Assembly (NCBI GenBank): GCA_951828385.1
Contig: OX639973.1
Coordinates: 6,488,845-6,552,844, forward strand
Origin: an uncultured Poribacteria bacterium
GTDB taxonomy: Bacteria > Poribacteria > WGA-4E > WGA-3G
Direction of reading: 5' to 3'
Length of the DNA: 64,000 nucleotides
The notes below the pieces were generated by a model. The model saw nothing but the letters and a program-made list of their open reading frames with translations, searched no databases and was not told the DNA's origin. Made by a program: the position numbers and the translations under genes. Shown here one piece after another: positions 4,111 to 51,626 of this stretch; the stretch's first letter is position 1, and the number at the start of each line of letters is the position of its first letter.

Positions 4111-7100
4111 TCAATTATTTTTGGTTTCAAGCGAGACGTGAAACATCCCGCGTTGTTCAGTCGCGATATAAAGCCTGTTACCCTTGACAATGAGTGCGAT
4201 AACAGTATCAGGAACTTCCGGTGAAATCTGTTCCCATCTATTTCGGTTATCTAATTGATAGACCCCTTTATCACCGGCACCATAAACCGTTGTCCCTGAC
4301 ACAGCCATTCGGTCTATGACGGTGTGAGTGCCATCATTATTGGTTATTGCCTGCCAATGCTCACCGTCCACCGATGTCAAGACACCTGTGTCTGTCGCGA
4401 CATAGACTGCAGAACCACCAGAGACTATCTCGTTGAAACGCTCAAAGCGAAGTGGCAGATTAGATGTTAAGTCTTTCCATGTGTTTCCGGCATCAGGGGA
4501 TCGTAAGAGATGCCCATCACGTTTTCCGACGTAGACGGTTTCCTCTGAAACGGCTATTCGGAGCCCGCTGTCAAATGGATTTTCAACGGCGATTTGGAGC
4601 CCGCTGTCAGATGGATTGTCAGACGGTTGCGTGGTATCTATCAACCCAGTATCTGTCCATTCAGGATCTCCGCGTGTCCACCGGAAAAGCCGTTGCTTGT
4701 ATTCCACATAGAATGTATTGCCGCTGACTGCGAACCCATTCGGCGATAGTTCAAATTGGTTCTCAACATCTGTCTGCTGCTCTACATTTATAGAATCATG
4801 AGGTATGTCTTGCTTTGAGGCTATCGGCGATTCGGCATCTTGTGTCTGCGTCCGGATATCGTTCGCAAAAATCGGGATGCCTTGGATCGGCACAAGCATA
4901 TTATCATCTGCAGAAAAACGGAGAATACGCAATCGGTTTTCTTTAACTAAGTCTTTTGCGGCAACGTAGAGCACATCGCCAGAAACCGATAACTTCGGAA
5001 ACATTAACAGATTGGACTGATGTCCGTTCTCTGCGGGTTGCAGTGTGAATTCACTAGTATTGGGCCGAAGCGGTTCCCAAGAATCGCCACCATCAATGGA
5101 TTTGGAGACCCCTGTAGTGGTGCTCGTGTAAATCGCATTTTTGTCAGCGACTAAGTTAAATATCATTGTACCGACGATGCCTTTGGTAAATGGATGCCAC
5201 GATTTACCACCATCCGTTGAGCGTGTCAGTTCGAGAATCCCTGCTTTGATGAACGTGCTTTCATCTACTGTTACGGCAGGGGCCAGGCTTATCATCATTG
5301 AATTCATCATTGCTTTCATGTCGAATGTCTCTGCAAAAGTATCAAAACTGAGACCGAGGTCTGTCCATGTTTTTCCGGCATCCGTTGAGCGAAAATTGGT
5401 CATAAGGCCTAACGCTAAGAGCGTCTCTCCGGCTGCCAAAACTTTGACACCTGGTGAGATTTTCATCAAAGGCGAATCACTTGTAGGTGTTATCTCGGTC
5501 CATGAATCTCCTAAGTTGGTGGAGTGGAAAATTTCCCACGTGCTTGAATTGGCAGCTCCCATAATTTGCGCCGTATACGCCATCCTACCTTCAGGGGTCC
5601 TCAATTGCGTAAGGTCGGGACCTGTTCCTACATAGAGATGGTTTTTAGAGACAGCCAAGGAATGGATGGCATTAGTAGTTTGTATCGGTAATTTTTCCCA
5701 CATACCCGCCTGTATGCGGTAGAGTCCGTGATTTGTGCCGATGAACACTGTATTTTCAATAACAGCGATTGCAAAATTGAACATGTCTTCGACTTTATCT
5801 CCGAATGGAATCCATTGCTTACCAGCATCCGTAGATCGGAAAATCTGAGTTTCGAGGACAAGATAGAGTGCATCATCGGTTGCTACAAGTCCGGTAGCAT
5901 CTCCTTTTGGACGCTCACCGAGTACTTTCCAGTTCTCGCCTCTGTCTGTTGACGCAGACACTTCACGGGTAGAAGCCAGATAGAGCGTCCCATCTCGTTC
6001 AGCTATCTGGGTCCAACCACTCATCCTTATGGATGTATTGATGAGTGTCCATGCGGATGCATTAGGTGTCAATCTATAGATGCCAACTGGTGAAGCGGCG
6101 TATATGTCCCCTGTGCTGCTTGCATACAAGCTTGACACCATAGTACTCTCTGGACCGAGTGCTTGCGTCCACTGCTGCTGGGTTGACGGGCGCGTCTCTT
6201 TTTCTACCCGCGATGCACCAAGTGTAACAGGTTCCGAAAGTTGCGGGCCGGAGGCACTGCTCTTACCCGTGGTTTCAAAACGTCCCGCTTGGTTCCGTAA
6301 ATCCGGTTTCGCCTGTGTATCAAGCACTATCGGTGCGTCAATGATTTCAACGGTCGTTTCAGATACTGCGTCTATGTTGTACGGTCTCTGGAAGCGCGCG
6401 AGGTATTGAGAACCGACACCCATTATTAAGAAGATAAAGAGTGCTGTTGCGGCAGAAAGTGCCACCGGTACTAATGGCTTACTACCTGACGGGGCAACGG
6501 GTTTCAGACGCGAAACTTCGCGCATGATGTTCTCTGTCAGATGCGGCGTGATTTGAAAATGCTCCAAAGCCTCTCTGACTATCGGTTCCTCTTGCTTCAA
6601 ACGTTGCTGTGCCCGGCGGAGCCGACTCTTAATCGTATTCACGGAAACACCCAAAAACGCGCCAATCTCTGCAGCCGACATTTCACTGAAATAATGCAGT
6701 GTGATGACCGTCCGATCACTCTCTTGGAGGGTTGCGAGCAATTGTTTCACGACTTCACGTTTGGCTTCCCCAATTGTCCGCTCCTTCTCTTCAATGACAT
6801 ACTGAGAATACGTCGCTTTTTCTAACTGCGCGCTATCCGTTTCTTCAAGGGGTTGCGTCTGCAAACGCTTTTTACGTAGCCACATCTTACAGTTATTCGC
6901 GGCGATGACATAAAGCCAACCCGTGAAACGCTGAGGCTTCTTCAACGTTCCGAGTCTCTGGTACGCCTTCAGGAATGTATCCTGTGTAATCTCCTCAGCG
7001 ATATGGAAGTCCCCTATTTTCCGCCACACAAGCGCGTGAACCGGCTTTTGATATTTTTTCACGAGTTCACTGAAGGCACTATCATCGCCATCAAGGGTGC

Positions 7101-7131
7101 GGTGTATGAGTTCAACATCTACATTTTTCAT
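4111..7131 (-). CDS. Membrane-tethered ECF sigma factor fused to an extracytoplasmic beta-propeller (copy 1)
   Basis: 1006 residues. Residues about 8-85 are sigma region 2 (GDFHIAEEITQDTFLKAYQ, FTGWLYVIAAN). Residues about 126-180 are sigma region 4 with its helix-turn-helix (SAAEIGAFLGVSVNTIKSRL). One transmembrane helix covers about 221-240, followed by the linker IIDAPIVLDTQAKPDLRNQ (about 263-281). The rest is a propeller with at least seven Asp-box motifs, including STDRGENW, STDAGKQW, STNLGDSW, STDGGKSW and SPDAGNTW. ECF factors are usually about 200 residues and held by a separate anti-sigma factor. Here anchor and putative sensor are in the same chain, and no anti-sigma gene is nearby. 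The start has GGAGGTGATAGC in front. It heads an operon with 2919-4076, 2062-2922 and the IS-split gene. A likely role is self-contained envelope sensing and transcription control, which is inference. Confidence 0.85.
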   Translation of the reverse strand: MKNVDVELIHRTLDGDDSAFSELVKKYQKPVHALVWRKIGDFHIAEEITQDTFLKAYQRLGTLKKPQRFTGWLYVIAANNCKMWLRKKRLQTQPLEETDSAQLEKATYSQYVIEEKERTIGEAKREVVKQLLATLQESDRTVITLHYFSEMSAAEIGAFLGVSVNTIKSRLRRAQQRLKQEEPIVREALEHFQITPHLTENIMREVSRLKPVAPSGSKPLVPVALSAATALFIFLIMGVGSQYLARFQRPYNIDAVSETTVEIIDAPIVLDTQAKPDLRNQAGRFETTGKSSASGPQLSEPVTLGASRVEKETRPSTQQQWTQALGPESTMVSSLYASSTGDIYAASPVGIYRLTPNASAWTLINTSIRMSGWTQIAERDGTLYLASTREVSASTDRGENWKVLGERPKGDATGLVATDDALYLVLETQIFRSTDAGKQWIPFGDKVEDMFNFAIAVIENTVFIGTNHGLYRIQAGMWEKLPIQTTNAIHSLAVSKNHLYVGTGPDLTQLRTPEGRMAYTAQIMGAANSSTWEIFHSTNLGDSWTEITPTSDSPLMKISPGVKVLAAGETLLALGLMTNFRSTDAGKTWTDLGLSFDTFAETFDMKAMMNSMMISLAPAVTVDESTFIKAGILELTRSTDGGKSWHPFTKGIVGTMIFNLVADKNAIYTSTTTGVSKSIDGGDSWEPLRPNTSEFTLQPAENGHQSNLLMFPKLSVSGDVLYVAAKDLVKENRLRILRFSADDNMLVPIQGIPIFANDIRTQTQDAESPIASKQDIPHDSINVEQQTDVENQFELSPNGFAVSGNTFYVEYKQRLFRWTRGDPEWTDTGLIDTTQPSDNPSDSGLQIAVENPFDSGLRIAVSEETVYVGKRDGHLLRSPDAGNTWKDLTSNLPLRFERFNEIVSGGSAVYVATDTGVLTSVDGEHWQAITNNDGTHTVIDRMAVSGTTVYGAGDKGVYQLDNRNRWEQISPEVPDTVIALIVKGNRLYIATEQRGMFHVSLETKNN

Positions 7132-7157
7132 GCTATCACCTCCGATTGATTTATAAT

Positions 7158-7185
7158 GATGCGTATTAGGTGCAAAATGGGTGCA
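7158..7185 (-). promoter_or_regulatory. ECF-type promoter candidate C, upstream of sigma-propeller operon 1
   Basis: On the minus strand the sequence reads TATGCACCC, 17 bases, CATC, about 27 bases upstream of the ATG at 7131. The same layout (TATGCAACC-N17-TGTC or CGTC) precedes the other two sigma-propeller operons. ECF promoters typically have an AAC-containing -35 and a CGTC-like -10 at this spacing. This copy is the most degenerate of the three. Confidence 0.6.
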
Positions 7186-7283
7186 TAATTCTGATTATAA
7201 TCTGATACCATTTCTATTTCAATAGCCATGTGGATGGCGGGGGTGTAAATTTTTTGACGCGCGATGAATGGAAATGCGACCCT

Positions 7284-7380
7284 GTAGCATAGACTGTTAG
7301 TCTGTGGCAGGTATCCTCGTAGCATAGATTGTTAGTCTGTGGCAGGTATCCTCGTAGCATAGACTGTTAGTCTGTGTCCT
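7284..7380. repeat. Tandem 35-bp palindromic repeat, about 2.8 copies
   Basis: Units begin at 7284, 7319 and 7354, each starting GTAGCATAGA(C/T)TGTTAG and containing the hairpin AGACT-GTT-AGTCT. Related single copies occur at 25884 and 31497. The third unit is truncated. There are no spacers, so this is not CRISPR. It lies in the 653-bp gap between 7131 and 7785, which holds no gene I can support. Confidence 0.85.
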
Positions 7381-7424
7381 GTGAAGAACCCGTATTTCCC
7401 AATCCGCGAAATCCGTGAAAATCC

Positions 7425-7571
7425 GCCCCAGGCCGGTAGGTTCGGTTTGATGAAGTTTAAGAAAATATTTCGGTAATAAACGGGCAATAATGCACGTCGC
7501 ATTTGGGTGAGTACACCGTAAAATTGCCCTACTACAAACAGACGGGCTCGTAGTAGTGCGATTCATCGCAC
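7425..7571. repeat. Remnants of two dispersed intergenic repeat families
   Basis: The stretch from 7425 (CCAGGCCGGTAGGTTCGGTT, then TGATGAAG and, further on, AATAAACGGG) matches the element at 16401-16471. The stretch 7517-7571 (CCTACTACAAAC, then CGTAGTAGTGCGATTC and ATCGCAC) matches the core of the 123-bp element at 45821-45943. Both copies are incomplete here. They occupy the rest of the gap before 7785. Confidence 0.6.
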
Positions 7572-7784
7572 GTTCTGAAGCAATTTTAAGAAACAAATTT
7601 TAGGTTTTCACGAAGATTGGAAGAAGTGCTTGTGTTCGCTATCTTCCGCACTTCCACCCTTCCAACTTATCCGAAGATCAAAAACGTCCATTTAATATTG
7701 AAACTTGCTTAAGGGGGGATTAAGGGGAGTGTTTTTGCTTGGGTATTTCTGCGGGTTTCTTGTCGCTCGCGATCTTTTTATCCA

Positions 7785-8480
7785 TCAACGTAGTTCCTTC
7801 CATTCCGATGGAATCCTATAACCGTGTTCTGCCCAAGAGTCTACAAGCATATTCCACGTTTGGTCTGCTATATCTACCGGATCTGGCAGGAGGTGGCTTA
7901 ACTGTTCTGGGATATGGTCTTCGGATGCTTCTGAATAAATTGTTTTTCGGACATCGTTTAATAAAGCGCGCTGTTCTTCAAGCGGCATTTGATTCAACGT
8001 TGCTGCTATCATTTTTGAGGCCGCTTTCACTTGGGAGAGTGCGGCTTCTGATAACTGTATGGCACTGTCTATGGTTTCGTATGTTTCTTTTTCCATCATT
8101 TTAATTTTTTCGGACATGGAGATAGCTTCTTCGTGTGCGTGCTCGTGTTGTGTATCTCCAGGTTGAGTCCCTTTGACATCGTTTTGGTTTTCGATGCCAG
8201 TGTTGGACACATCAGAAACTGAGGCAGGGGAAGTGCCGTTGTCAATCTCAGTAACGGACGGTTCTATTGTTTCTTCAGGGGCTGAATGTACAGGATTGGT
8301 TCCTGCTGTCTGCTTCTTAGCGGCGGATGTATCCGTTGCTAATGGCGTTACACTGCGATATATCTTCTGTGGCTCAGCCCTCAGTATTTCTTGAGAAGGC
8401 CGATGATGTCCGAAATACCATAAAGCCGTTGCTACTATTAAGAAAAGTACGAGATAAGCGAGGACGGATAACTTTTTCAT
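7785..8480 (-). CDS. Membrane-anchored protein of unknown function, partner of sigma-propeller 2
   Basis: 231 residues with an N-terminal transmembrane anchor (LSVLAYLVLFLIVATALWYF, about 4-23). A long low-complexity Ser/Thr/Glu-rich stretch follows (to about 110), with a small histidine cluster (TQHEHAHEE). The C-terminal domain is helical (about 120-231). It starts 24 bases after the stop of the sigma-propeller gene 8505-11393 and is surely cotranscribed with it. The architecture (anchor, flexible stalk, small helical domain) resembles the other operon partners in form, not in sequence. Function unknown. Confidence 0.75.
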   Translation of the reverse strand: MKKLSVLAYLVLFLIVATALWYFGHHRPSQEILRAEPQKIYRSVTPLATDTSAAKKQTAGTNPVHSAPEETIEPSVTEIDNGTSPASVSDVSNTGIENQNDVKGTQPGDTQHEHAHEEAISMSEKIKMMEKETYETIDSAIQLSEAALSQVKAASKMIAATLNQMPLEEQRALLNDVRKTIYSEASEDHIPEQLSHLLPDPVDIADQTWNMLVDSWAEHGYRIPSEWKELR

Positions 8481-8504
8481 TTCAAATTTAGACTCCTTTT
8501 CCTA

Positions 8505-11393
8505 CTATTCTTTTTTAATCGAAATGCGGAACATCCCGCGCCGTTTCGTAACAATATAAGATTGATCACCATTAATCACAAGAGAAACAACACTATCTGG
8601 CACTTCTGGCAAGATTTTTTCCCATTCGGCGCGATGATTCAAGCGATAGCCCCCTTCATTGCTGGCACCATAAATTGTCTGGGTATCCACAGTGATTCGA
8701 TCAATGAGCGTGTGTATGCCTGCTTTATCGGTGATTGCGCGCCAATGCTCACCGTTTTCTGAAACCAAGACCCCCGCGTCCGTAGCAACATACACTGTTG
8801 AACCCGCAAAGGTTATATCATTGAAACGCTCAAAACGTAAGGGCAGACTTGAAGTCAAGTCTTTCCATGTGGTGCCACTATCGAACGATTGAAAAAGACT
8901 TCCACCGCGTTTCCCTGCGTAGACGGTTTCCTCAGAAACAGCAAGTCTCAGTTTTTTCATAAAGCCATTATTTTCGTCCTTGCTTTTGCCTTCATCTACC
9001 AGTCCGGTGTTAAACCATTCTGACTCACCGCGTTTCCATCTGAGAAGCTGCCGCCTATGTTCTATATAGAAGGTCTTGCCACTGACCGCAAAGGCACTGG
9101 GGGATATTTCATGCTCTATTAGATCCGCCCACGCCTTTGTATCTGTGATGGGAGGGGCTTCGCCAACAGCGGGTATCCCTTGGATAGGGACTAATACGTT
9201 TCCATTTTCAGAGAGACGACAGATGCGCGATTTATGCTCGGGAACTAAAGTCGCTCCGGCACCATAAAGTCCGCCGTTAGCAATTACTAATTTTGGGGAA
9301 ATCAGACGGTAGGCTTTTTCTACTGGTTTTAGCGTGAGTTCACCTGAATTCAACGGAAGATTTCTCCACGACGCACCGCCATCGATGGATTTCATAACAC
9401 CTTTGGCGTTGCTCGTGTAGATTGCATTTTTGAACCTTATTAAGTTGGATATTGAAACGTCTACTAACCCGTTCGTAAATGAGTGCCACGATTCACCACC
9501 ATCGGTTGAACGTGTCAATTCGATGGATCCGACCTTAAAGAAGGTATTTTCGTCTACTGCTGCAAGAGTCGATGCTGTTATATTGGTGTCAGATTCTGTC
9601 CATGTTGTGCCCCCGTCCGTTGAACGAAGGTTTATCACTCCAGATACCAGGACGGTATTTCCAGCTGCAAAGACTTCAGCGTTTGAAGGGATTTTCATCT
9701 TGATTGATTTGTTTCTCGGTGTTATATCAGTCCACGAATCTCCCAAATCCCTTGATCGGAAGACTTCCCATGTCCTTACATCGGAATCGAGGAGGTTACT
9801 CATAAGCGCATCCAGGTACGCCTGCCTGCCTTCCGGGGTTTCTAATTCGGAAGTGTCTTGCCCTGTTCCGACGTAAAGAGTATTTCCAGAGACAGACAAA
9901 GCGTGAATGGCTTTTGTGGTAAGCGGCAATTTTTCCCACGTTCCTGAAGACAAGCGGTAGAGTCCCCGGTTTGTCCCGATAAACACTGTATTTTCAACAG
10001 CAGCGATTGCCCTAATACCACTGTCTGCTATTTCGGAGTTCAGTAGCATCCACTGCTTACCGGCATTTGTAGACCGGAAAATACCTTCATCTCGAAGTGC
10101 GAGGTATAAGGCATCATCCATTACCACCAGACCAATCGCGCGCCCTTTTGGACGCTCGCCAAGTTTTATCCATGTCTCGCCTCTGTCTTTTGAAGCAAAC
10201 ACGCCATTGGAAAAAACAAGATAGAGTGTGTCGTTGCGTTCCACTATCAGTTTGCGGTAATTGTCTACTGAAGCATCTGGTGGAAGTGGGCTAATAAGCG
10301 TCCAGGCGGGTGCATCTGGTGCTAATCTGTAGATACCGATTTTTGAAACCGCATAGACATCCCCCCAGGAACTTGCTAATATGTTTGATACTGAACGCCC
10401 TTTTGCTGGACCGCTTACTTGTACCCACTGTTGGTTTGTTGAGAGGCGCGGTTCCTTTTCTACTTGCGCGGCGGCAAGCATAAGAGATTCTGAAACTTGC
10501 GGACCGACACTTTTACTTCTACCAATGCTATCGAAACGTCCGGCTTGGTTTCGTAAATCCGGTTTCGTTTGTGTATCAAAGACAATCGGAGCATCAATGA
10601 TTTCAACGGTGGCTTCTGATTGCGAGTCCAAGTTGTAGGGCTTCTGAAAATGGACAAGGTGTTCAGAACCGATACCGATTATCAGCAACATAAGGACCGC
10701 CGTTGCAGCGGAGACCGCCCACGGCACAATAGGGGGGCTGCTTGTCGGAGCAACCGGCTTAATATCAGCGACTTGCCGCATGATATTCTCTGCAAGGTTG
10801 GCAGGTAATTGGACGCTACCGAGCGTTTCGCGAATCATATTTTCTTCTCCCTTTAAACGGTTACGGGCGCGTTGGAGACGACTCTTAACGGTATTCGGGG
10901 ATACACCCAAGAATTCGCCAATCGCCTTGCATGACATTTCGCCGAGATAGTGAAGCGTCATAACCGTGCGTTCACTCTCCGGCAGTTTTTCAAGGAGGGC
11001 TTTGACAATTTCACGCTGATGTTCAGCAGTCTCGGCTTCACTGCGCTCAGATTCATAATTAGCATAAAACGATTTTTCGATTTCTTCTATTGGCGTGACT
11101 TCTATTGATTGGTGACGGATTGCCGGTTTGTTTCTTTGGATCCAATTAAGACAAAGGCGATTCGCAATCACATAAAGCCACCCATCAAAGAGTTTCGGGT
11201 TCTTTAGCGTTGAAAGCTTTTTATACACTTGGAGGAAAGCATCTTGCGTAATTTCTTCAGCAATGTGAAAATCCCCTATCTTCCGCCATATAAGCGCATG
11301 AACACGTCTTTGGTACTTTCGGACTAAGACGCTAAATGCCTCGTCTTCGCCTGACAAAATCCTGTGAATCAATTCGACATTATCTCTTACCAT
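8505..11393 (-). CDS. Membrane-tethered ECF sigma factor fused to an extracytoplasmic beta-propeller (copy 2)
   Basis: 962 residues with the same order as the copies at 4111 and 13484. Sigma region 2 is at about 8-88 and region 4 at about 128-182 (CKAIGEFLGVSPNTVKSRLQ). A transmembrane helix covers about 223-243, followed by the linker IIDAPIVFDTQTKPDLRNQ at about 265-283 and the propeller from about 325 to the end. The Asp boxes include SKDRGETW, STNAGKQW, SRDLGDSW, STDGGTTW, STDGGESW, SIDGGASW and SFDSGTTW. Region 4 and the following 30 residues are almost identical to copy 3, while the propellers differ more. This fits a shared promoter specificity with different sensing surfaces. GGAG precedes the ATG, and the ECF-type promoter lies about 70 bases upstream. 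The gene is followed at once by 7785-8480. Confidence 0.85.
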   Translation of the reverse strand: MVRDNVELIHRILSGEDEAFSVLVRKYQRRVHALIWRKIGDFHIAEEITQDAFLQVYKKLSTLKNPKLFDGWLYVIANRLCLNWIQRNKPAIRHQSIEVTPIEEIEKSFYANYESERSEAETAEHQREIVKALLEKLPESERTVMTLHYLGEMSCKAIGEFLGVSPNTVKSRLQRARNRLKGEENMIRETLGSVQLPANLAENIMRQVADIKPVAPTSSPPIVPWAVSAATAVLMLLIIGIGSEHLVHFQKPYNLDSQSEATVEIIDAPIVFDTQTKPDLRNQAGRFDSIGRSKSVGPQVSESLMLAAAQVEKEPRLSTNQQWVQVSGPAKGRSVSNILASSWGDVYAVSKIGIYRLAPDAPAWTLISPLPPDASVDNYRKLIVERNDTLYLVFSNGVFASKDRGETWIKLGERPKGRAIGLVVMDDALYLALRDEGIFRSTNAGKQWMLLNSEIADSGIRAIAAVENTVFIGTNRGLYRLSSGTWEKLPLTTKAIHALSVSGNTLYVGTGQDTSELETPEGRQAYLDALMSNLLDSDVRTWEVFRSRDLGDSWTDITPRNKSIKMKIPSNAEVFAAGNTVLVSGVINLRSTDGGTTWTESDTNITASTLAAVDENTFFKVGSIELTRSTDGGESWHSFTNGLVDVSISNLIRFKNAIYTSNAKGVMKSIDGGASWRNLPLNSGELTLKPVEKAYRLISPKLVIANGGLYGAGATLVPEHKSRICRLSENGNVLVPIQGIPAVGEAPPITDTKAWADLIEHEISPSAFAVSGKTFYIEHRRQLLRWKRGESEWFNTGLVDEGKSKDENNGFMKKLRLAVSEETVYAGKRGGSLFQSFDSGTTWKDLTSSLPLRFERFNDITFAGSTVYVATDAGVLVSENGEHWRAITDKAGIHTLIDRITVDTQTIYGASNEGGYRLNHRAEWEKILPEVPDSVVSLVINGDQSYIVTKRRGMFRISIKKE

Positions 11394-11464
11394 TGGAATT
11401 CTCCGTAGTTTCAGGACGATTGCGAATATGAAATTATAACATCGTTCTGTTCTTTAAAGTTAAA

Positions 11465-11492
11465 GACACAATTATATACCCGAACGGTTGCA
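11465..11492 (-). promoter_or_regulatory. ECF-type promoter candidate A, upstream of sigma-propeller operon 2
   Basis: On the minus strand: TTATGCAACC, 17 bases, TGTC, about 70 bases upstream of the ATG at 11393. A TTTTTTCGG tract precedes the -35-like block, as it does at 17553-17580. No TTGACA-type element is nearby, which supports use by an alternative sigma factor. Confidence 0.65.
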
Positions 11493-11604
11493 TAATGCCG
11501 AAAAAATTCAACTTTTAACGCTGTTTTTTGGGAGAACCGTCGTCGGAATCCTATTTTAACGATTGAGCAACTATTACCTAAATCAGTTTGCGGTGCAAAA
11601 TAAA

Positions 11605-11635
11605 AACGCATCCACAAAATGCTTGTGGATGCGTT
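11605..11635 (-). terminator. Rho-independent terminator after operon 3
   Basis: A perfect 13-bp stem (AACGCATCCACAA and its complement) with a 5-base loop is followed on the minus strand by TTTATTTT. It lies 23 bases past the stop of 11658-13454 and separates operon 3 from promoter A of operon 2. Confidence 0.88.
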
Positions 11636-11657
11636 AAAAAATGATCTACCGCATCGG

Positions 11658-13454
11658 CTACATGCCAAACATCATTCCGAACGCTTGAAAGAGCGGCTTG
11701 AAATCACCGAGAGTGAGAAGCAATTTTGCATCAATGCTGTCGTCCCGCGCTTTCGCAGAGAAGCCGATGCTATAGTTCTCTGGTAAGTTCATGAACGCAC
11801 CAGAAACCATTTGTATCATGGCTGCACCATTTGGATCCATCTGTTCTACCACTGGCAGGATACTTTTAAACGCCGTAATTGGAGAAATTGCCAGAAGAAC
11901 GTTATTGTCAGTCCCTAATCTATCGGTGAGTTTTTGATAACTCGGGTGTTCGGAAAATTTCTCACTATTTCCGGTGCTCCTATCAAGCGATGCTTGAATC
12001 AATTGCGGATGGGTCCCCGTTGCGAAAAGGAGCTGCCCTTCGCTAAACGCGTAATACCAGTGCCATTCCGGTGGCATCTGCTCAAACGGATCGGACGATG
12101 TTACGCCAAAAACCTCATTCGGATTAGGAAAAATGTAGCTTTTAATCTCAACCCCGTTGTGCATTGTAGATGGACCTGCGTGAGCATCTTTGTAATTGAG
12201 TTTTGCCAGAAACACTTCGTCCATATAGGTTTTTGCTTGCTGTTCATCTTTCAGGTCATAGATGAACAGAAAATTAGCTAAAGCACCATCCCCAAAGCCG
12301 GCAGAGACACTCCATCGGTCCGCCAGAGATTCATAAAAATCCTTCACCTGTTCGAGGAGTCGATCTCGCGTTTCTTGTGTATCTCGAATACGTTTTGGCG
12401 TAAAATCTAACCAAGATGTACTAATCTCGGTTTGCAATTTTGAACTCCCCTGAAAGGCAGCGTTCATAGTGGCACGATCTGGAAGGGCCCCGAGGTGCGT
12501 TAATTCGTCGGATACTTCCTGGACGGCATTCACGAACTCACTATCCGATTTGAATTCAAGTGAGGGTGTGATTTGCACATCGGTTCCTTCCACTTGAAGT
12601 TTGGCATTTATAGATTGCAGCTGCTTAATAAATTCTGTCCTTCCTGTCAGTAGGTCTTCAAAGAGACCTCCAATCACCAGAGACACCGAGCCTGAATTAT
12701 TTTTCAGATTGTCTGTCATTGATTGCCATTCTTCCTCAAGTGAACCATCAAGCGAAGCGATAACGCCTTCGATGTCAAAGCAGACACCTAACTGATCCCT
12801 GCCTTCAAGCATATCAGTAAAGAAAGATTGATAGCCTCGGTTCTCTGTGATAGCCTGTATCGTTCCATGACGCGTATCAATAACATTTTCACAGACCGTA
12901 CGCTGCTGTGAGAAGACGAGAATGTCGTCTAAGATAGCAAAACTGTTGCCATCGCCATTTTCGCTCCAATAGGCAGCGTCTTTATAGGCTGTTGGTGCGC
13001 TTCCACCGGTTTCCGTTTCAATCACCTGCTTAACCGTTTCGGTGTCCTTTAAATGGATAGCTACGGAAAGCTGCAGAGGTTTCAAACGGGTAAGGAAGAT
13101 TGCGAAATCTCGGTTCAAATCCAATCCGATGGCTTCAAAACCGGCTAAACTCTCAAAATTAGCACCGAGGGCACCCGCTAACATTTGGGCGATAATTTCT
13201 GGGGATCCTGATTGCGGTGAAAGGTCTCTGAACAGTGTGTTAATCTTATTATTCAATTCAATCGCGTTCGGACAATAGATAATGCCCAAGGTTTTTTCTG
13301 GAATTAGATGTAGCACACTGTCGCTCGAAAGAGCATCAGATGAAGGCGTTTCTACTGCCTGATCGGACGCTGCGTTACTAACGCACACGAATAGAAGTGT
13401 CGTCAGAAGTGCTAACATTGCGATGACGGGTGAGGCTAAAAATTTCTTTTTCAT
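11658..13454 (-). CDS. Exported protein of unknown function, partner of sigma-propeller 3
   Basis: 598 residues from the ATG at 13454, chosen because AGGAG sits five bases upstream (an upstream in-frame start at 13484 lacks one). A signal peptide (residues about 1-25, ending near SNAASD) is followed by a large domain with repeated Phe/Leu-rich strands and no recognised catalytic motif. The overall look (SVLHLIPEKTLGIIYCPN, then long stretches of 'DFAIFLTRL' type) is like DUF3352-style secreted proteins, but I am not sure of that. It starts 29 bases after the sigma-propeller stop, so the two are cotranscribed, and it ends at a strong terminator. Its paralogue at 1-1969 sits in operon 1 and is broken by an IS. 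Confidence 0.8.
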   Translation of the reverse strand: MKKKFLASPVIAMLALLTTLLFVCVSNAASDQAVETPSSDALSSDSVLHLIPEKTLGIIYCPNAIELNNKINTLFRDLSPQSGSPEIIAQMLAGALGANFESLAGFEAIGLDLNRDFAIFLTRLKPLQLSVAIHLKDTETVKQVIETETGGSAPTAYKDAAYWSENGDGNSFAILDDILVFSQQRTVCENVIDTRHGTIQAITENRGYQSFFTDMLEGRDQLGVCFDIEGVIASLDGSLEEEWQSMTDNLKNNSGSVSLVIGGLFEDLLTGRTEFIKQLQSINAKLQVEGTDVQITPSLEFKSDSEFVNAVQEVSDELTHLGALPDRATMNAAFQGSSKLQTEISTSWLDFTPKRIRDTQETRDRLLEQVKDFYESLADRWSVSAGFGDGALANFLFIYDLKDEQQAKTYMDEVFLAKLNYKDAHAGPSTMHNGVEIKSYIFPNPNEVFGVTSSDPFEQMPPEWHWYYAFSEGQLLFATGTHPQLIQASLDRSTGNSEKFSEHPSYQKLTDRLGTDNNVLLAISPITAFKSILPVVEQMDPNGAAMIQMVSGAFMNLPENYSIGFSAKARDDSIDAKLLLTLGDFKPLFQAFGMMFGM

Positions 13455-13483
13455 TTTTCTCCTAAAGATAATGCCGCGTAGCA

Positions 13484-16384
13484 TTAACCCTTTTCGTTTC
13501 CAAGCGAAACGTGAAACATTCCACGCTTGTTGGTAATAATGTAAAGCTTGTCATTGGCGAAGACGAGTTCTCGGATGCCATCAGGGACTTCTGGGGAGAC
13601 CTTCTTCCAGTTACCACGATTATCCAAACGATAGGCACCGGCATTACACACCCCGTAAACCGTAGTGTCATCAACAGCAAGACTCGCAACAATGAGACGC
13701 TCGCCTTCAGTGTCCGTGAGCACACGCCAGTGTTCCCCGTTTTGCGAAGTTAAGACCCCTTTATTCGTTGAAACGTAAACCACTGCACCTACAAAGAGTA
13801 TCTCTTTGAAACGTTTAAATTGAAGCGGCAGGTTTGGCGTAACGTCTTTCCAATTGGTTCCCTCATCAAACGATTGAAAGAGTTTACCGTCCCGCATACC
13901 GGCGTAAATAGTTTTCCCCGAAACAGCTAATCTGATTCCCTTACGACTGTTGTGAGGTTGTTTCCCTGAATCTATGAGGCCTGTACTGACCCATTTCCAT
14001 GTGCCGGGTTTACATTTGAACAGTTCCCGCCTATACTCAATATAGAACGTATTATCACTAACTGCAAGCTCGCCGAGTGTCACCTCACCTGCTAATAGAT
14101 CTTCCGAGTAGAGTTCGTCATCAAATTCGAGGGAGGGGAGACCTTTGACCGGAATTAGCGTATTGCCATCGGCGGACAACTGGAAAATGCGCAATTTGCT
14201 TTTTCTTGTAGGAGCACCGAAAATGTCTCTTTTGCTTTCTTCAAGGAAAACCCCGTAAGGGATATCGTCAGCGACAACTAACCTCTGATTCGGAAAATCA
14301 GGATCGCGAGGCGAATTCAAACCGACGCTAAAGTTAACAGGAGTCCATGACTCGCCACTATCCGTTGATTTAGCAATTTTGCTGTCGTTGTGGACGTAAA
14401 GACCGTTTTTGAACGCCACTAAATTCCGCATGCCGGTGCCTATCATTCCCCGCATAAACGGATGCCACGATTCACCGCCGTCGGTTGTCCGATGGAGACG
14501 ATATTTACCCGCATAAAAGGTATTGTCATTGACACCTACAGTTGGCATGTAAGATGGAATATAGAGTATTTCTCCGAGGTCTGTCCATGTTTGCCCGCTG
14601 TCTCTTGAGCGGATGCCATTACTGCTGCTCACTGCTAAAAGCGTCTCGCCAGTAACCATAAGTTTAATGTCTCGTGCTGGCTGCATAGCGAAAGAGACCT
14701 TTTTCGGTGTTATGTCAGTCCATGAATTCCCTAAATCTGTTGAATGGAGAATCGCCCAATGGATTTTCCCTTTCATGATTGAGTCACCGTACTGTTTCTG
14801 AGCTTCTGGCAATTTCATGCGTGAGTAGTCTGGACTCACTGCAACATAAAGGTCGCTTTCAGAGACTGCGAAGGAGTCAAAGGCGTTAAAGGGAGAACGT
14901 GTCTCTATCGGCAATTTTGCCCATTTACCTGAATTAAGTCGGTAGAGGCCTCGGTTTGTAAGGGCAAACACAGTGTTTCCAATAGATGAGACTCCTGAAA
15001 TTTTTTCGTCTGTTGATTCCGCATCAAAGTTAAAGCCGTCGTTAAAGGCTATCCACTGTTTACCAGCATCGGTAGAGCGGAAAACACCTTTTTTCTCAAT
15101 AGCAAGGTAAAAGACTTGGTCTGTTATTATCAATCCGACAGCCCTACCTTTTGGACGACTACCGAGCGCATGCCACGTCTTGCCACGATCTGTTGAAGAC
15201 AGCATTTCTTTAACAGAGACAATATAAAGTCTATCATCTCGTTCTGCCATCGGCATCGGATAGAGTTGCCCATTCGTTACACTTGCATTGACGAGTGTCC
15301 ATGTTTCCTTGTCTGGGGTCAGTTGGTAGAGACCGATCGGTGAGACGGCGTAGATATCTCCTGTGGCACTCGCAAGAAAGCCTAAGATAGAAACGCCTTC
15401 TGGACCACTCGCTTGTCTCCACTGCTGTTTTGTTGACGTGCTTTTTTTATTCACTACCTCCGTAGCCGCAGCCAGCACAAAAGGTTCCGAGACTTGCGGT
15501 CCAATGCCACTGCGCTTACCGTCGGTTTCAAAACGTCCTGCTTGGTTTCGTAAGTCAGGTTTTGCTTGTGTATCAAGCACAATCGGTGCGTCAATGATTT
15601 CAATAGTGGTTTCGGATTGGGCGTTTACATTGTAAGGGTTCTGAAAACGGGCAAGGTATTCGGAACCCACACCCATTATTAAAAAGATAAATATCGCTGT
15701 TGCAGCAGAGATTGCCCACGGCACTAATGGTTTGCTGCTTGTCGGGGCTATCGGTTTTATGTCTGCGATTTGCCGCATAATGTTCTCTGTGAAGTTGGCA
15801 GGGAGTTGCACGCTGCCAAGAGTTTCGCGAATCATGTTTTCCTGCTCCTTTAAACGGTTACGGGCGCGCTGAAGCCGACTCTTAACGGTATTTGGCGATA
15901 CACCTAAGAATTCGCCAATCGCCTTACACGTCATTTCGCCGAGATAGTGAAGTGTTACAACCGTACGTTCGCTTTCTGGTAGTTGTTCAAGGAGGTTTTT
16001 GATGAATCCACGACGATATTCAACAGAGGCATTCTCGCGTTGTTCATCTTCGTACGAACGGTAGGCTAATCCGTCGATTTCCTCTTCGCTTATGGTTTCT
16101 AACGATTCCATTTGTGGCTTCTGTTTTCGGTACCAAGCAGTACAGACCCGATCGGTGATAACATAGAGCCATCCCGCAAACTGATTCGGATTCTTCAATG
16201 TGCCGAGCTTTTGGTATACCTTGAGGAATGTGTCCTGTGTCAGTTCCTCTGCAGTGTGGAAATCGCCAACTTTCCGCCAAGCAAGCGCGTGGACCCGCTT
16301 CTGGTGTTTCTTTACCAATGTGGTGAAAGCATTCTCATCACCTGTCAAGAAGCGATTAATAAGTTGTGCATCTTCGTTTTTCAT
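13484..16384 (-). CDS. Membrane-tethered ECF sigma factor fused to an extracytoplasmic beta-propeller (copy 3)
   Basis: 966 residues from the ATG at 16384 (AGGAGA upstream). Sigma region 2 is at about 9-88 (GDFHTAEELTQDTFLKVYQ) and region 4 at about 127-181. A transmembrane helix covers about 221-241, with the linker IIDAPIVLDTQAKPDLRNQ just after and the propeller from about 325. The Asp boxes include SSTDRGKTW, STDAGKQW, STDLGNSW, SRDSGQTW, TTDGGESW, STDSGESW and SFDEGTNW. The C-terminal blade ends KRGMFHVSL, close to copies 1 and 2. The gene lies between the exported 311-residue protein (16509-17444) and the exported 598-residue protein, so this operon has a partner on each side. The 121-bp leader between it and the upstream gene contains a perfect 17-bp hairpin. 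Confidence 0.85.
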   Translation of the reverse strand: MKNEDAQLINRFLTGDENAFTTLVKKHQKRVHALAWRKVGDFHTAEELTQDTFLKVYQKLGTLKNPNQFAGWLYVITDRVCTAWYRKQKPQMESLETISEEEIDGLAYRSYEDEQRENASVEYRRGFIKNLLEQLPESERTVVTLHYLGEMTCKAIGEFLGVSPNTVKSRLQRARNRLKEQENMIRETLGSVQLPANFTENIMRQIADIKPIAPTSSKPLVPWAISAATAIFIFLIMGVGSEYLARFQNPYNVNAQSETTIEIIDAPIVLDTQAKPDLRNQAGRFETDGKRSGIGPQVSEPFVLAAATEVVNKKSTSTKQQWRQASGPEGVSILGFLASATGDIYAVSPIGLYQLTPDKETWTLVNASVTNGQLYPMPMAERDDRLYIVSVKEMLSSTDRGKTWHALGSRPKGRAVGLIITDQVFYLAIEKKGVFRSTDAGKQWIAFNDGFNFDAESTDEKISGVSSIGNTVFALTNRGLYRLNSGKWAKLPIETRSPFNAFDSFAVSESDLYVAVSPDYSRMKLPEAQKQYGDSIMKGKIHWAILHSTDLGNSWTDITPKKVSFAMQPARDIKLMVTGETLLAVSSSNGIRSRDSGQTWTDLGEILYIPSYMPTVGVNDNTFYAGKYRLHRTTDGGESWHPFMRGMIGTGMRNLVAFKNGLYVHNDSKIAKSTDSGESWTPVNFSVGLNSPRDPDFPNQRLVVADDIPYGVFLEESKRDIFGAPTRKSKLRIFQLSADGNTLIPVKGLPSLEFDDELYSEDLLAGEVTLGELAVSDNTFYIEYRRELFKCKPGTWKWVSTGLIDSGKQPHNSRKGIRLAVSGKTIYAGMRDGKLFQSFDEGTNWKDVTPNLPLQFKRFKEILFVGAVVYVSTNKGVLTSQNGEHWRVLTDTEGERLIVASLAVDDTTVYGVCNAGAYRLDNRGNWKKVSPEVPDGIRELVFANDKLYIITNKRGMFHVSLGNEKG

Positions 16385-16400
16385 CAAATCTCTCCTATTT

Positions 16401-16471
16401 CCCCCAGGTCGGTAGGTGCGGTTTGATGAAGATTAATTTTTTAATCTTCATCAAACCTCGCCAATAAACGG
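16401..16471. repeat. Dispersed repeat with a perfect 17-bp hairpin, inside operon 3
   Basis: GGTTTGATGAAGATTAA (16420-16436), a TTTT loop and its exact complement (16441-16457) form a very stable hairpin between 16509-17444 and 13484-16384. The start (CCAGGTCGGTAGGTGCGGTT) and end (CCAATAAACGGG) match the remnant at 7425. The head also matches the hairpin at 51641. No U-run follows on the minus strand, so it is a weak terminator at best. It could set the ratio of upstream to downstream gene, or simply be an inserted mobile palindrome. Confidence 0.75.
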
Positions 16472-16508
16472 GTTTGCGTAAGTCACTTTGATAACGCTGG
16501 TAGTCTTG

Positions 16509-17444
16509 TTACTCTGAAACCGAAGGTTTGATTTCATATCGCGTTAATTCAAGCGTTTTCTCTTCAGGCGGCTCCAACCCAAGTTCTTTCTCTTCCTCGG
16601 ACAACTGGTGATTGTGGACAAATTTCACAATACCAACATTAGGAGCTAACCAGAGTGTTGCCAAAGATACATCCGTCTGCTCTTGATGCACCGGCTCTGG
16701 GCTGACTTCAAGCCCAACTATCTCAGGTGGAACTATTTTTATTGACGCATCTGTTCGGTACTCGATCACCAAACAATCCTCAAAGGTACCGGCAGGAGTT
16801 TCGACAGTTTCTGTCCCAGAGACGTAGCCAGTCTCTACGAGAGTCGTATCGGTTTTGACGGTCTGCTTTGTGGGGACTCCCGGTATTTCAGGCATTCCCT
16901 TGAATTCAGTTGTCATGTTCACTACAATGTTTAGTTCAAGGGCAGTCCATTCTTCATTGAAGGGAGTAGATGTCGGTAAGAAGTAAAAGTAGTCTTGTGA
17001 TTCTACCGCAACATCGTAATCTATATCAATAGAGATGTTTAATCCCTGAGTAGCTGCATCCTGCTGTATTTCTTCACGTGCCTGTGAAATGATTTTATCC
17101 ATCTGTTGCGATTTAATTCCGTTGAACGCATTTTCTATTTCGGTGCCAGCGAAAAACGCTACCCATTCGTTACTGGTTTGGTAAAAATAGGGCTGAACAT
17201 AATACGCGAAATCTGCCCAATTGTCTATCGTAGGTTCGTAACTGAATGCCCGGTAAGTTTCGCCATCAACTTCTTCTGGTTCTATGGCGTAGCGCGTGAG
17301 TTCATTGCCGTCTTGGTCTTCGTAGGTCCAGGAACTGCCGACTGTATCCGGAAAGTAACGGTTCGCCCATTCATTTCCCATCAGGGTCGCGCTGAAGCCG
17401 AAGATGAATAAAGAGATTGAGACAAATCCAATTTTTTTCAACAT
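16509..17444 (-). CDS. Exported protein of unknown function, first gene of operon 3
   Basis: 311 residues with a signal peptide (MLKKIGFVSISLFIFGFSAT). The mature part begins EWANRYFPDTVGSSWTYED, a pattern seen in secreted proteins of unknown function that open with a G-x-x-W-x-Y strand. Near residues 215-280 are TPAGTFEDCLVIEYRT and TLWLAPNVGIVKF, blocks typical of beta-rich secreted proteins of the DUF3108 / lipoprotein-localisation-like type. That similarity is from memory and uncertain. The gene sits directly behind ECF-type promoter B and upstream of sigma-propeller 3, so it is probably the first target of that regulator. No catalytic residues were recognised. Confidence 0.75.
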   Translation of the reverse strand: MLKKIGFVSISLFIFGFSATLMGNEWANRYFPDTVGSSWTYEDQDGNELTRYAIEPEEVDGETYRAFSYEPTIDNWADFAYYVQPYFYQTSNEWVAFFAGTEIENAFNGIKSQQMDKIISQAREEIQQDAATQGLNISIDIDYDVAVESQDYFYFLPTSTPFNEEWTALELNIVVNMTTEFKGMPEIPGVPTKQTVKTDTTLVETGYVSGTETVETPAGTFEDCLVIEYRTDASIKIVPPEIVGLEVSPEPVHQEQTDVSLATLWLAPNVGIVKFVHNHQLSEEEKELGLEPPEEKTLELTRYEIKPSVSE

Positions 17445-17552
17445 GAGAGATTCCTTTCACAATTTTCGCCACGGTTTTGTTTTTCCGAAAGCGAGTATAA
17501 AATTAAAATATACGAAACTTTTTAATCCCACTCGACTGCTGTTACTATTAAT

Positions 17553-17580
17553 GACGCGATTTAAAATGCGAAAGGTTGCA
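17553..17580 (-). promoter_or_regulatory. ECF-type promoter candidate B, upstream of operon 3
   Basis: On the minus strand: CTATGCAACC, 17 bases, CGTC, about 109 bases before the ATG at 17444. This is the best match of the three to the usual ECF pattern (AAC-type -35, CGTC -10). It is preceded by a TTTTTTTCGG tract shared with promoter A. It lies just after the end of the HEAT-repeat gene. Confidence 0.65.
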
Positions 17581-17607
17581 TAGTCCGAAAAAAATCTGAA
17601 TTTTATT

Positions 17608-20140: not shown

Positions 20141-20169
20141 TTGACAGAAAATTAAAAAATAGGTATACT
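20141..20169 (+). promoter_or_regulatory. Housekeeping-type promoter for yiiM-nagB, probably leaderless transcript
   Basis: TTGACA (20141-20146), 17-base spacer, TATACT (20164-20169). The ATG at 20180 is only 11 bases after the -10 and has no Shine-Dalgarno sequence, so the mRNA probably begins at or within a few bases of the start codon. Confidence 0.8.
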
Positions 20170-50950: not shown

Positions 50951-51626
50951 TTTTGATCCTTTTGCAGCAATACTTTTGGTTACACAGTTTATTGTCCTGT
51001 TAACCTTCCATGAGTGGGGACACGCCAAATCCGCAAACATGTTAGGTGATCCAACCGCCCGCGATCAAGGACGCATGACACTCAATCCAGGTGTACATAT
51101 TGATATGATCGGGACAATTATACTACCGTTAATCGCTTCGTTTTTCGGAGGCGCCTTTTTTGGGTGGGCAAAACCAGTACCGGTGAATCCTTACAATCTG
51201 AAGAATCCGAGGCGAGACCTGATGCTGATCGCCGCAGCTGGGCCGTTCATGAATATTGTGCTTACTTTCGTGATCTTAGGCGCGGTTAAACTACTTATAG
51301 CATTTACCTCATTTGATCCATCCGAATCCGAGCTGCATTTTGAGATTAACAGGCAATTAATTAGGATGGGATTTATTAGTATTTTTCTCGCCGCGTTTAA
51401 TATGCTCCCACTCTTTCCATTAGACGGCTTCAGTGTGGTGAGAGGTCTACTACCGGAACACTTAGCACGCGGATTTGAAAAATTGATGCCATACGGAATG
51501 CCGATTCTGATGTGCCTCATTTTTCTGCCAAGTCTCTTGGGCATACCGAACTATATATTCGGGTTCTTGACCGATATTAGCTACGCAGTATTCAATCTAA
51601 TAGCCGAAATCGTCGGCTTACGATGA
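50943..51626 (+). CDS. Site-2 protease family (M50) membrane metalloprotease
   Basis: 227 residues with about five transmembrane segments. The zinc site His23-Glu24-x2-His27 (FHEWGHAKSAN) lies in the first helix, and NMLPLFPLDGFSVVRG supplies the third ligand Asp. No PDZ domain, so this is the short, PDZ-free S2P type (like Poribacterial and actinobacterial housekeeping copies) and is probably not an RseP. It overlaps the CCA-adding gene by 8 bases and is the third member of an operon running on towards scpA. Intramembrane cleavage of a tethered regulator is the typical job; its client is unknown. Confidence 0.85.
   Translation: MANFDPFAAILLVTQFIVLLTFHEWGHAKSANMLGDPTARDQGRMTLNPGVHIDMIGTIILPLIASFFGGAFFGWAKPVPVNPYNLKNPRRDLMLIAAAGPFMNIVLTFVILGAVKLLIAFTSFDPSESELHFEINRQLIRMGFISIFLAAFNMLPLFPLDGFSVVRGLLPEHLARGFEKLMPYGMPILMCLIFLPSLLGIPNYIFGFLTDISYAVFNLIAEIVGLR

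Follow-up and report, generated by a model that had tools for sequence, protein, structure and literature searches.

Predicted autologous promoters, individually tuned to their own sigma domains, in a large family of ECF sigma fusions of Candidatus Poribacteria

INTRODUCTION

Autoregulated ECF sigma factors, and a code relating their residues to promoter bases, are already known. In Escherichia coli sigmaE and Bacillus subtilis SigW, sigma2 and sigma4 domains recognize a CGT-type -10 and an AAC-type -35 element through defined base-reading residues, and the operon activates itself. Residue-to-base rules for ECF promoter specificity were derived from autoregulated ECFs (Todor et al. 2020, PNAS, as presented in the review PMC8103513). 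Some ECF groups also carry additional domains: ECF57 members have WD40 C-terminal extensions and two conserved cysteines that reportedly connect sigma2 with sigma4, and ECF48, ECF52, ECF53, and IutY have a C-terminal transmembrane (TM) region or a fused anti-sigma domain and are activated by proteolysis.

The proteins described here, from a 6.66-Mb Candidatus Poribacteria genome, resemble sigmaE and SigW in their domains, promoter elements, and base-reading residues, with self-activation of the operon predicted. Unlike those factors, they carry the sigma domain on the same chain as a TM segment and a large C-terminal domain, have no detectable anti-sigma partner, and number 74 close paralogs in one genome. 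Position-specific rules of the Todor type apply, but here they vary among close paralogs within one genome and genus. ECF57 also joins an ECF sigma to a C-terminal propeller, whereas most of the propellers here are of the BNR/Ycf48/Sortilin type, arranged in tandem after a TM segment; compared with the ECF57 description, the members we began with match BNR, Sortilin, and Ycf48 models rather than WD40, and the cysteine pair is not invariant among the sigma fusions, in which C81 is the only invariant cysteine. As in ECF48/52/53 and IutY, sigma and membrane regulator lie in one chain, but the C-terminal domain is much larger, and the TM segment is present without a match to a zinc-finger family in Pfam, where ECF48/52/53 have a zinc finger and then TM helices. 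The propeller-rich periplasmic sensors of the Bacteroides HTCS proteins BT4663 and BT4673 are alike by fold, at low TM-scores (~0.23), but the output here is a sigma domain rather than a histidine kinase/response regulator, and the proteins are not HTCS members. New here are the architecture of the fusions, their multiplication to dozens per genome within a single genus, and promoters tuned one by one; in the openly accessible literature searched, we found no description of these features and no paper on ECF expansion in Poribacteria.

RESULTS

Three sigma-propeller operons. The window, meaning the whole 64,000-nucleotide stretch of DNA that was analyzed, contains three operons with the following parts.

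7187-7158, minus strand: pattern site of operon 1, TATGCACCC-N17-CATC
7154..7187, minus strand: predicted autologous promoter of P0001, -35 TATGCACCCATT, N13, -10 GCATCATTA
4111..7131, minus strand: P0001, sigma-propeller of 1006 aa with sigma2, sigma4, and a C-terminal BNR/Sortilin-type propeller
11494-11465, minus strand: pattern site of operon 2, TATGCAACC-N17-TGTC
11461..11494, minus strand: predicted autologous promoter of P0002, -35 TATGCAACCGTT, N13, -10 GTGTCTTTA
8505..11393, minus strand: P0002, sigma-propeller of 962 aa
7785..8480, minus strand: P0002 follower gene, 231 aa, hydrophobic N-terminal segment
17582-17553, minus strand: pattern site of operon 3, TATGCAACC-N17-CGTC
17549..17582, minus strand: predicted promoter of operon 3, preceding the 311-aa gene, -35 TATGCAACCTTT, N13, -10 GCGTCATTA
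16509..17444, minus strand: exported 311-aa gene, weak DUF3108-like match, putative optional cargo of operon 3
13484..16387, minus strand: P0003, sigma-propeller of 966 aa, counted from the ATG adjoining a TTG at 16387
11658..13484, minus strand: P0003 follower, DUF3352, 608 aa, overlapping the P0003 stop codon

A first-pass annotation had reported the three sites on the coding strand; their presence and strand hold, and the upper coordinates it gave are 2 nt too small, because its motif starts with TATGCA, not TGCA. The tract TTTTTTCGG that it described ahead of two of the three sites is there, as is TTGACA-N17-TATACT, which occurs twice in divergent orientation, at 20141 (+) and 20127 (-).

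By Pfam and NCBIfam, all three proteins consist of an ECF sigma factor (sigma2 and sigma4) followed by a BNR/Sortilin/Ycf48-like region. With sigma2 and sigma4 as the only promoter-binding domains, and PDB matches to SigW, sigmaE, and sigmaH, they belong to the ECF (group IV) factors, and their sites have the AAC-type -35 and CGT-type -10 of ECF promoters, with a TGCAAC/CGTC core in most sites of the class. The P0001 promoter lies ~22 nt upstream of the ATG, with the ribosome-binding site GGAGGTGA in between, and the protein has a single TM segment near residue 221. The P0002 ATG is 67 nt downstream of its promoter, and the protein is laid out as sigma2 (2-88), sigma4 (139-190), a helix (200-208), a TM segment (~222-240), a disordered stretch (240-320), and a beta-propeller region (~325-960). 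An AlphaFold model of P0002 (mean pLDDT, 76.5) has the same order, with a large propeller at its end; the nearest solved folds are GH74 tandem-propeller xyloglucanases, followed by HTCS sensor propellers. The 231-aa follower of P0002 had no match in the family search, none of the neighbor genes in the window operons matched an anti-sigma family, and no zinc-finger anti-sigma domain or gene was detected in the sequences scanned. The DUF3352 follower adjoins P0003 orthologues in several species.

The window also holds similar dispersed repeat stretches at 16406-16460 and ~7430-7490. The former lies in the gap from the 311-aa gene to P0003 and includes an almost perfect hairpin, GGTTTGATGAAGATTAA...TTAATCTTCATCAAACC, and read-through from the operon 3 promoter may therefore be attenuated. 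Short direct repeats, GTAGCATAGA(C/T)TGTTAGTCTGTG, lie at 7280-7380 in the gap downstream of the P0002 follower, and a short M50 (site-2 protease-like) gene is present at ~50985-51464 (+).

The 311-residue gene had been seen as tied to the system by its place behind the operon 3 promoter, a view that fits some species and not others. It sits between promoter and sigma gene in three Poribacteria contigs (L046, L049, and L060), but the orthologous operons of L048, L059, L062, and L064 have no such leader gene, and the same promoter type abuts the sigma gene directly at a distance of ~100 nt. Judged by gene order, the 311-aa gene is a variable, optional operon cargo.

A genus-wide family of sigma fusions. 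All 74 close paralogs of the ECF sigma module in this genome are fusions; the sigma domain has a further ~20 ECF matches that are more distant. Every same-genus genome searched had strong matches to the module, from 8 to at least 39 per genome, compared with 0 to 2 in genomes of other families of the order. In 56/74 paralogs, a conserved TM segment of the LPW type lies near residue 221 (54 above the hydropathy threshold, plus S39 and S41 slightly below it); it is absent from 18/74. Partners include tandem propellers, Kelch, LRR, peptidases, thioredoxin-like domains, and the DNA sliding clamp; the soluble, TM-less fusions include DnaN clamp, AhpC-TSA, methyltransferase, and peptidase proteins.

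L108:6283-8007 and L104:6643-8007, both minus strand: fusions of ECF sigma to the DNA polymerase III beta sliding clamp
L105:11529-13658 (-), L106:3992-5854 (+), L110:3995-6802 (+), L096:5044-8007 (-), and L107:160-1554 (-): TM-less sigma fusions with AhpC/TSA-thioredoxin with TPR, prolyl oligopeptidase, M61 peptidase, or methyltransferase partners

One clamp fusion (S71) has all three clamp domains and the other (S70) the first two, and each has its own promoter of the window-site class. Elsewhere in the genome, at 1,524-1,573 kb (L075-L077), ~12 sigma-propellers form a tandem array, all in the same orientation; in several of them the -35 is altered (TGTGAGAC/TGTGTGAC) and pairs with N171 or T171.

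Sites at the heads of the fusion genes. The first-pass annotation had named a random genome-wide frequency of the motif as an outcome that would speak against its reading. The frequency is not random: the pattern fixed from the three window sites has 20 exact matches in the genome, compared with 2 for a reversed-pattern control, and when the spacer was freed to 13-22, N17 predominated. All 17 same-genus genomes sampled carry the motif, at 4 to 22 matches each against 0 to 3 for controls; in 12 genomes from other families of the order it is at control level.

We seeded a two-block model, TATGCAMCYTTT-N12/13-GCGTCAYTA, with this motif. It assigned a site to the gene or operon head of 68/74 paralogs, counting operon heads up to 2.6 kb upstream, in a first test on the same upstream regions used for training; 59/74 had a site of >15 bits within 300 nt upstream, and six had no assigned site. 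On the reverse strand of the upstream regions 0/74 exceeded 9 bits, and none of the shuffled upstream regions exceeded 12 bits. The 0.92 Mb of fetched sequence held 70 sites of >24 bits, compared with 0 in the reversed sequence, and a sequence-only model scoring the best 150 of 3378 first-look candidates found ~110 sites genome-wide at E<0.03. Sites lie mostly 20-120 nt before start codons, are strand consistent, have a fixed N12/13 spacing, and share a -35 framework, TATG-C-A-M-C-Y, in which G at -35 is invariant.

Promoter letters covary with the encoded sigma. In partial Mantel tests, which can be anti-conservative, -35 distances correlated with sigma4 once sigma2 was controlled for (r=0.257, p=0.001) but not with sigma2 once sigma4 was (-0.19), and -10 distances correlated with sigma2 under control for sigma4 (r=0.305, p=0.001) but not with sigma4 under control for sigma2 (-0.02); correlations were weaker when limited to divergent pairs. 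The top pairs by corrected mutual information were 170/-31, 170/-30, 174/-32, 171/-34, and residues 83 and 86 with the -10. By direct alignment, residues 170, 171, and 174 correspond to SigW K170, T171, and H174 and to sigmaE R171, S172, and F175, for which crystal structures show contacts to -31, -34, and -32/-33, and residues 82/83 correspond to sigmaH I91/N92, which read -11 in a crystal structure.

Among 115 promoters from three species, the base at -31 was C in 71/71 cases with K170, G in 8/8 with T170, and T in 3/3 with V170; at -34 it was C in 91/95 with S171 and T in 7/7 with T171. The -10 read GCATC in 6/6 cases with M83, compared with 1/109 without it, and GTGTC in 10/12 with N83, and D83 went with a non-G base before CGTC in 22/23. 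G at -35 was present in 115/115 sites and R175 in all 114 readable rows. The window sites follow these rules: TGTC (GTGTC) goes with N83 of P0002, CGTC (GCGTC) with A83 of P0003, and CATC (GCATC) with M83 of P0001, whose R174 goes with C rather than A at -32. Since the variants match residues 83 and 174, the small differences among the three sites are probably the specificity signal. What had been called the same promoter before all three operons is shared in its -35 and private to each sigma in its -10.

Sites beyond the fusion genes. Of the 40 sites away from sigma-fusion heads, 19 are no more than 10 kb from such a head, where 15% would be expected (p=1.7e-6). The predicted enrichment before exported proteins was seen at these non-sigma sites, where the first downstream gene looked exported in 19/33 cases compared with 16/67 in the background (p=0.001) by a heuristic export predictor; one, at genome position 5730263, has exactly the -35 and -10 of operon 3 and precedes an exported 661-aa protein. 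Sequence paired non-self sites with a neighboring sigma clearly for S03, S12, S16, S24, S26, and S07, and unclearly for the others. At 1305459-1307100 (L126), a site of the class stands ahead of at least three tandem STAS-type genes that, read by eye, resemble anti-anti-sigma proteins.

DISCUSSION

Each window site is very probably the promoter of its own sigma-propeller operon, read by the ECF sigma which that operon encodes. Positive autoregulation had been put forward as the simplest explanation of the shared motif, and it gains support from a -35 that tracks sigma4 and a -10 that tracks sigma2, at positions structurally known to read bases. Because promoter letters match the DNA-reading residues of the same protein, each fusion probably switches on its own gene, and sequence comparison strongly supports individually tuned autoregulation across the sigma fusions. 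It likewise strongly supports paralogs that differ in specificity, each promoter fitting its own sigma best, since the diversified bases are those read by 170/171/174 (-35) and 82/83/86 (-10).

The same pattern could arise by inheritance only, if promoters were copied in gene duplication and the covariation is a phylogenetic echo. The paralogs do come from duplication, several clusters are tandem, and the nearest homologue predicts promoter letters well. In two other species, the frozen model found a site of >18 bits within 500 nt for 47/83 sigma-fusion genes, compared with 0 sites on the reverse strand of the same genes, and the residue rules outperformed permutation, yet copying the nearest homologue from our first genome did equally well; because most test genes have close homologues there, this comparison cannot separate code from inheritance. 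Ancestry was controlled with 55 path-disjoint sister pairs on a tree from which the contact residues had been left out, used in place of independent pairs from supported branches alone, which were too few to decide. In the disjoint pairs, residue 170 ranked 1 of 181 for -31, accompanying 7/8 base changes (p=1.2e-4); residues 168 and 171 were first and second for changes at -33; 173, 167, and 171 were the top three for -34; residue 83 was second for -10 index 2; and 82 and 83 were second and third for -11. The association of 174 with -32 was weak (rank 24, p=0.086), and noncontact residues also ranked high at some promoter positions. Given that contact residues took top or near-top ranks at most positions, that the -35 and -10 dissociate between sigma4 and sigma2, and that genus-wide conservation implies selection on the sites, we consider inheritance by itself very unlikely.

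Alternatively, one other sigma or a master member could read all of the promoters, the fusions not reading their own. The common -35 framework would suit such a reader, and candidates exist in the more distant ECF matches and in other sigma-like genes, two of which have a site ahead of them. However, promoter bases follow the contact residues of the cognate sigma, and with a single reader the choice among C, G, and T at -31 would not depend on which residue the gene behind the promoter encodes at 170, which makes this arrangement very unlikely. That the sites are DNA-binding or mobile-element sequences rather than promoters is highly improbable: a few non-sigma sites precede transposase-like genes, but distance and strand relative to start codons are constrained, the AAC/CGT cores are ECF-like with a fixed N12/13, and the -35 and -10 each follow a different sigma domain. 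Constrained placement and covariation also led us to reject a shared transposon origin for the motif.

If autoregulation is accepted, RNA polymerase carrying the cognate sigma would start at that sigma's own promoter. For the 56 TM members, the likeliest scheme would keep the sigma domain bound to the inner membrane and the propeller exposed outside it; a ligand, perhaps a glycan, could then free or activate sigma through proteolysis or a change in conformation, and self-amplification of the loop would follow. A glycan is suggested by the similarity of the fold to the tandem propellers of GH74 and HTCS proteins, and the genome encodes an M50 site-2 protease of ~570 aa. A periplasmic sensor cannot be general, because 18/74 fusions have no TM helix and some are joined to enzymes or a sliding clamp. 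One broader idea, which we regard as possible but rather doubtful, is that the sigma domain is a portable self-transcription module fused before diverse proteins, its private promoter giving a self-sustaining, possibly bistable on-state, so that cells would display different surface and effector combinations.

A single genome here supplies dozens of sigma-promoter pairs as a natural library, all closely related and diverged in specificity by a few residues. The recognition code, the insulation of paralogs, and the evolution of orthogonal regulators become directly testable, with orthogonal parts on offer. For the uncultured, sponge-associated Poribacteria, the family suggests how many surface sensors may be linked to transcription via single proteins.
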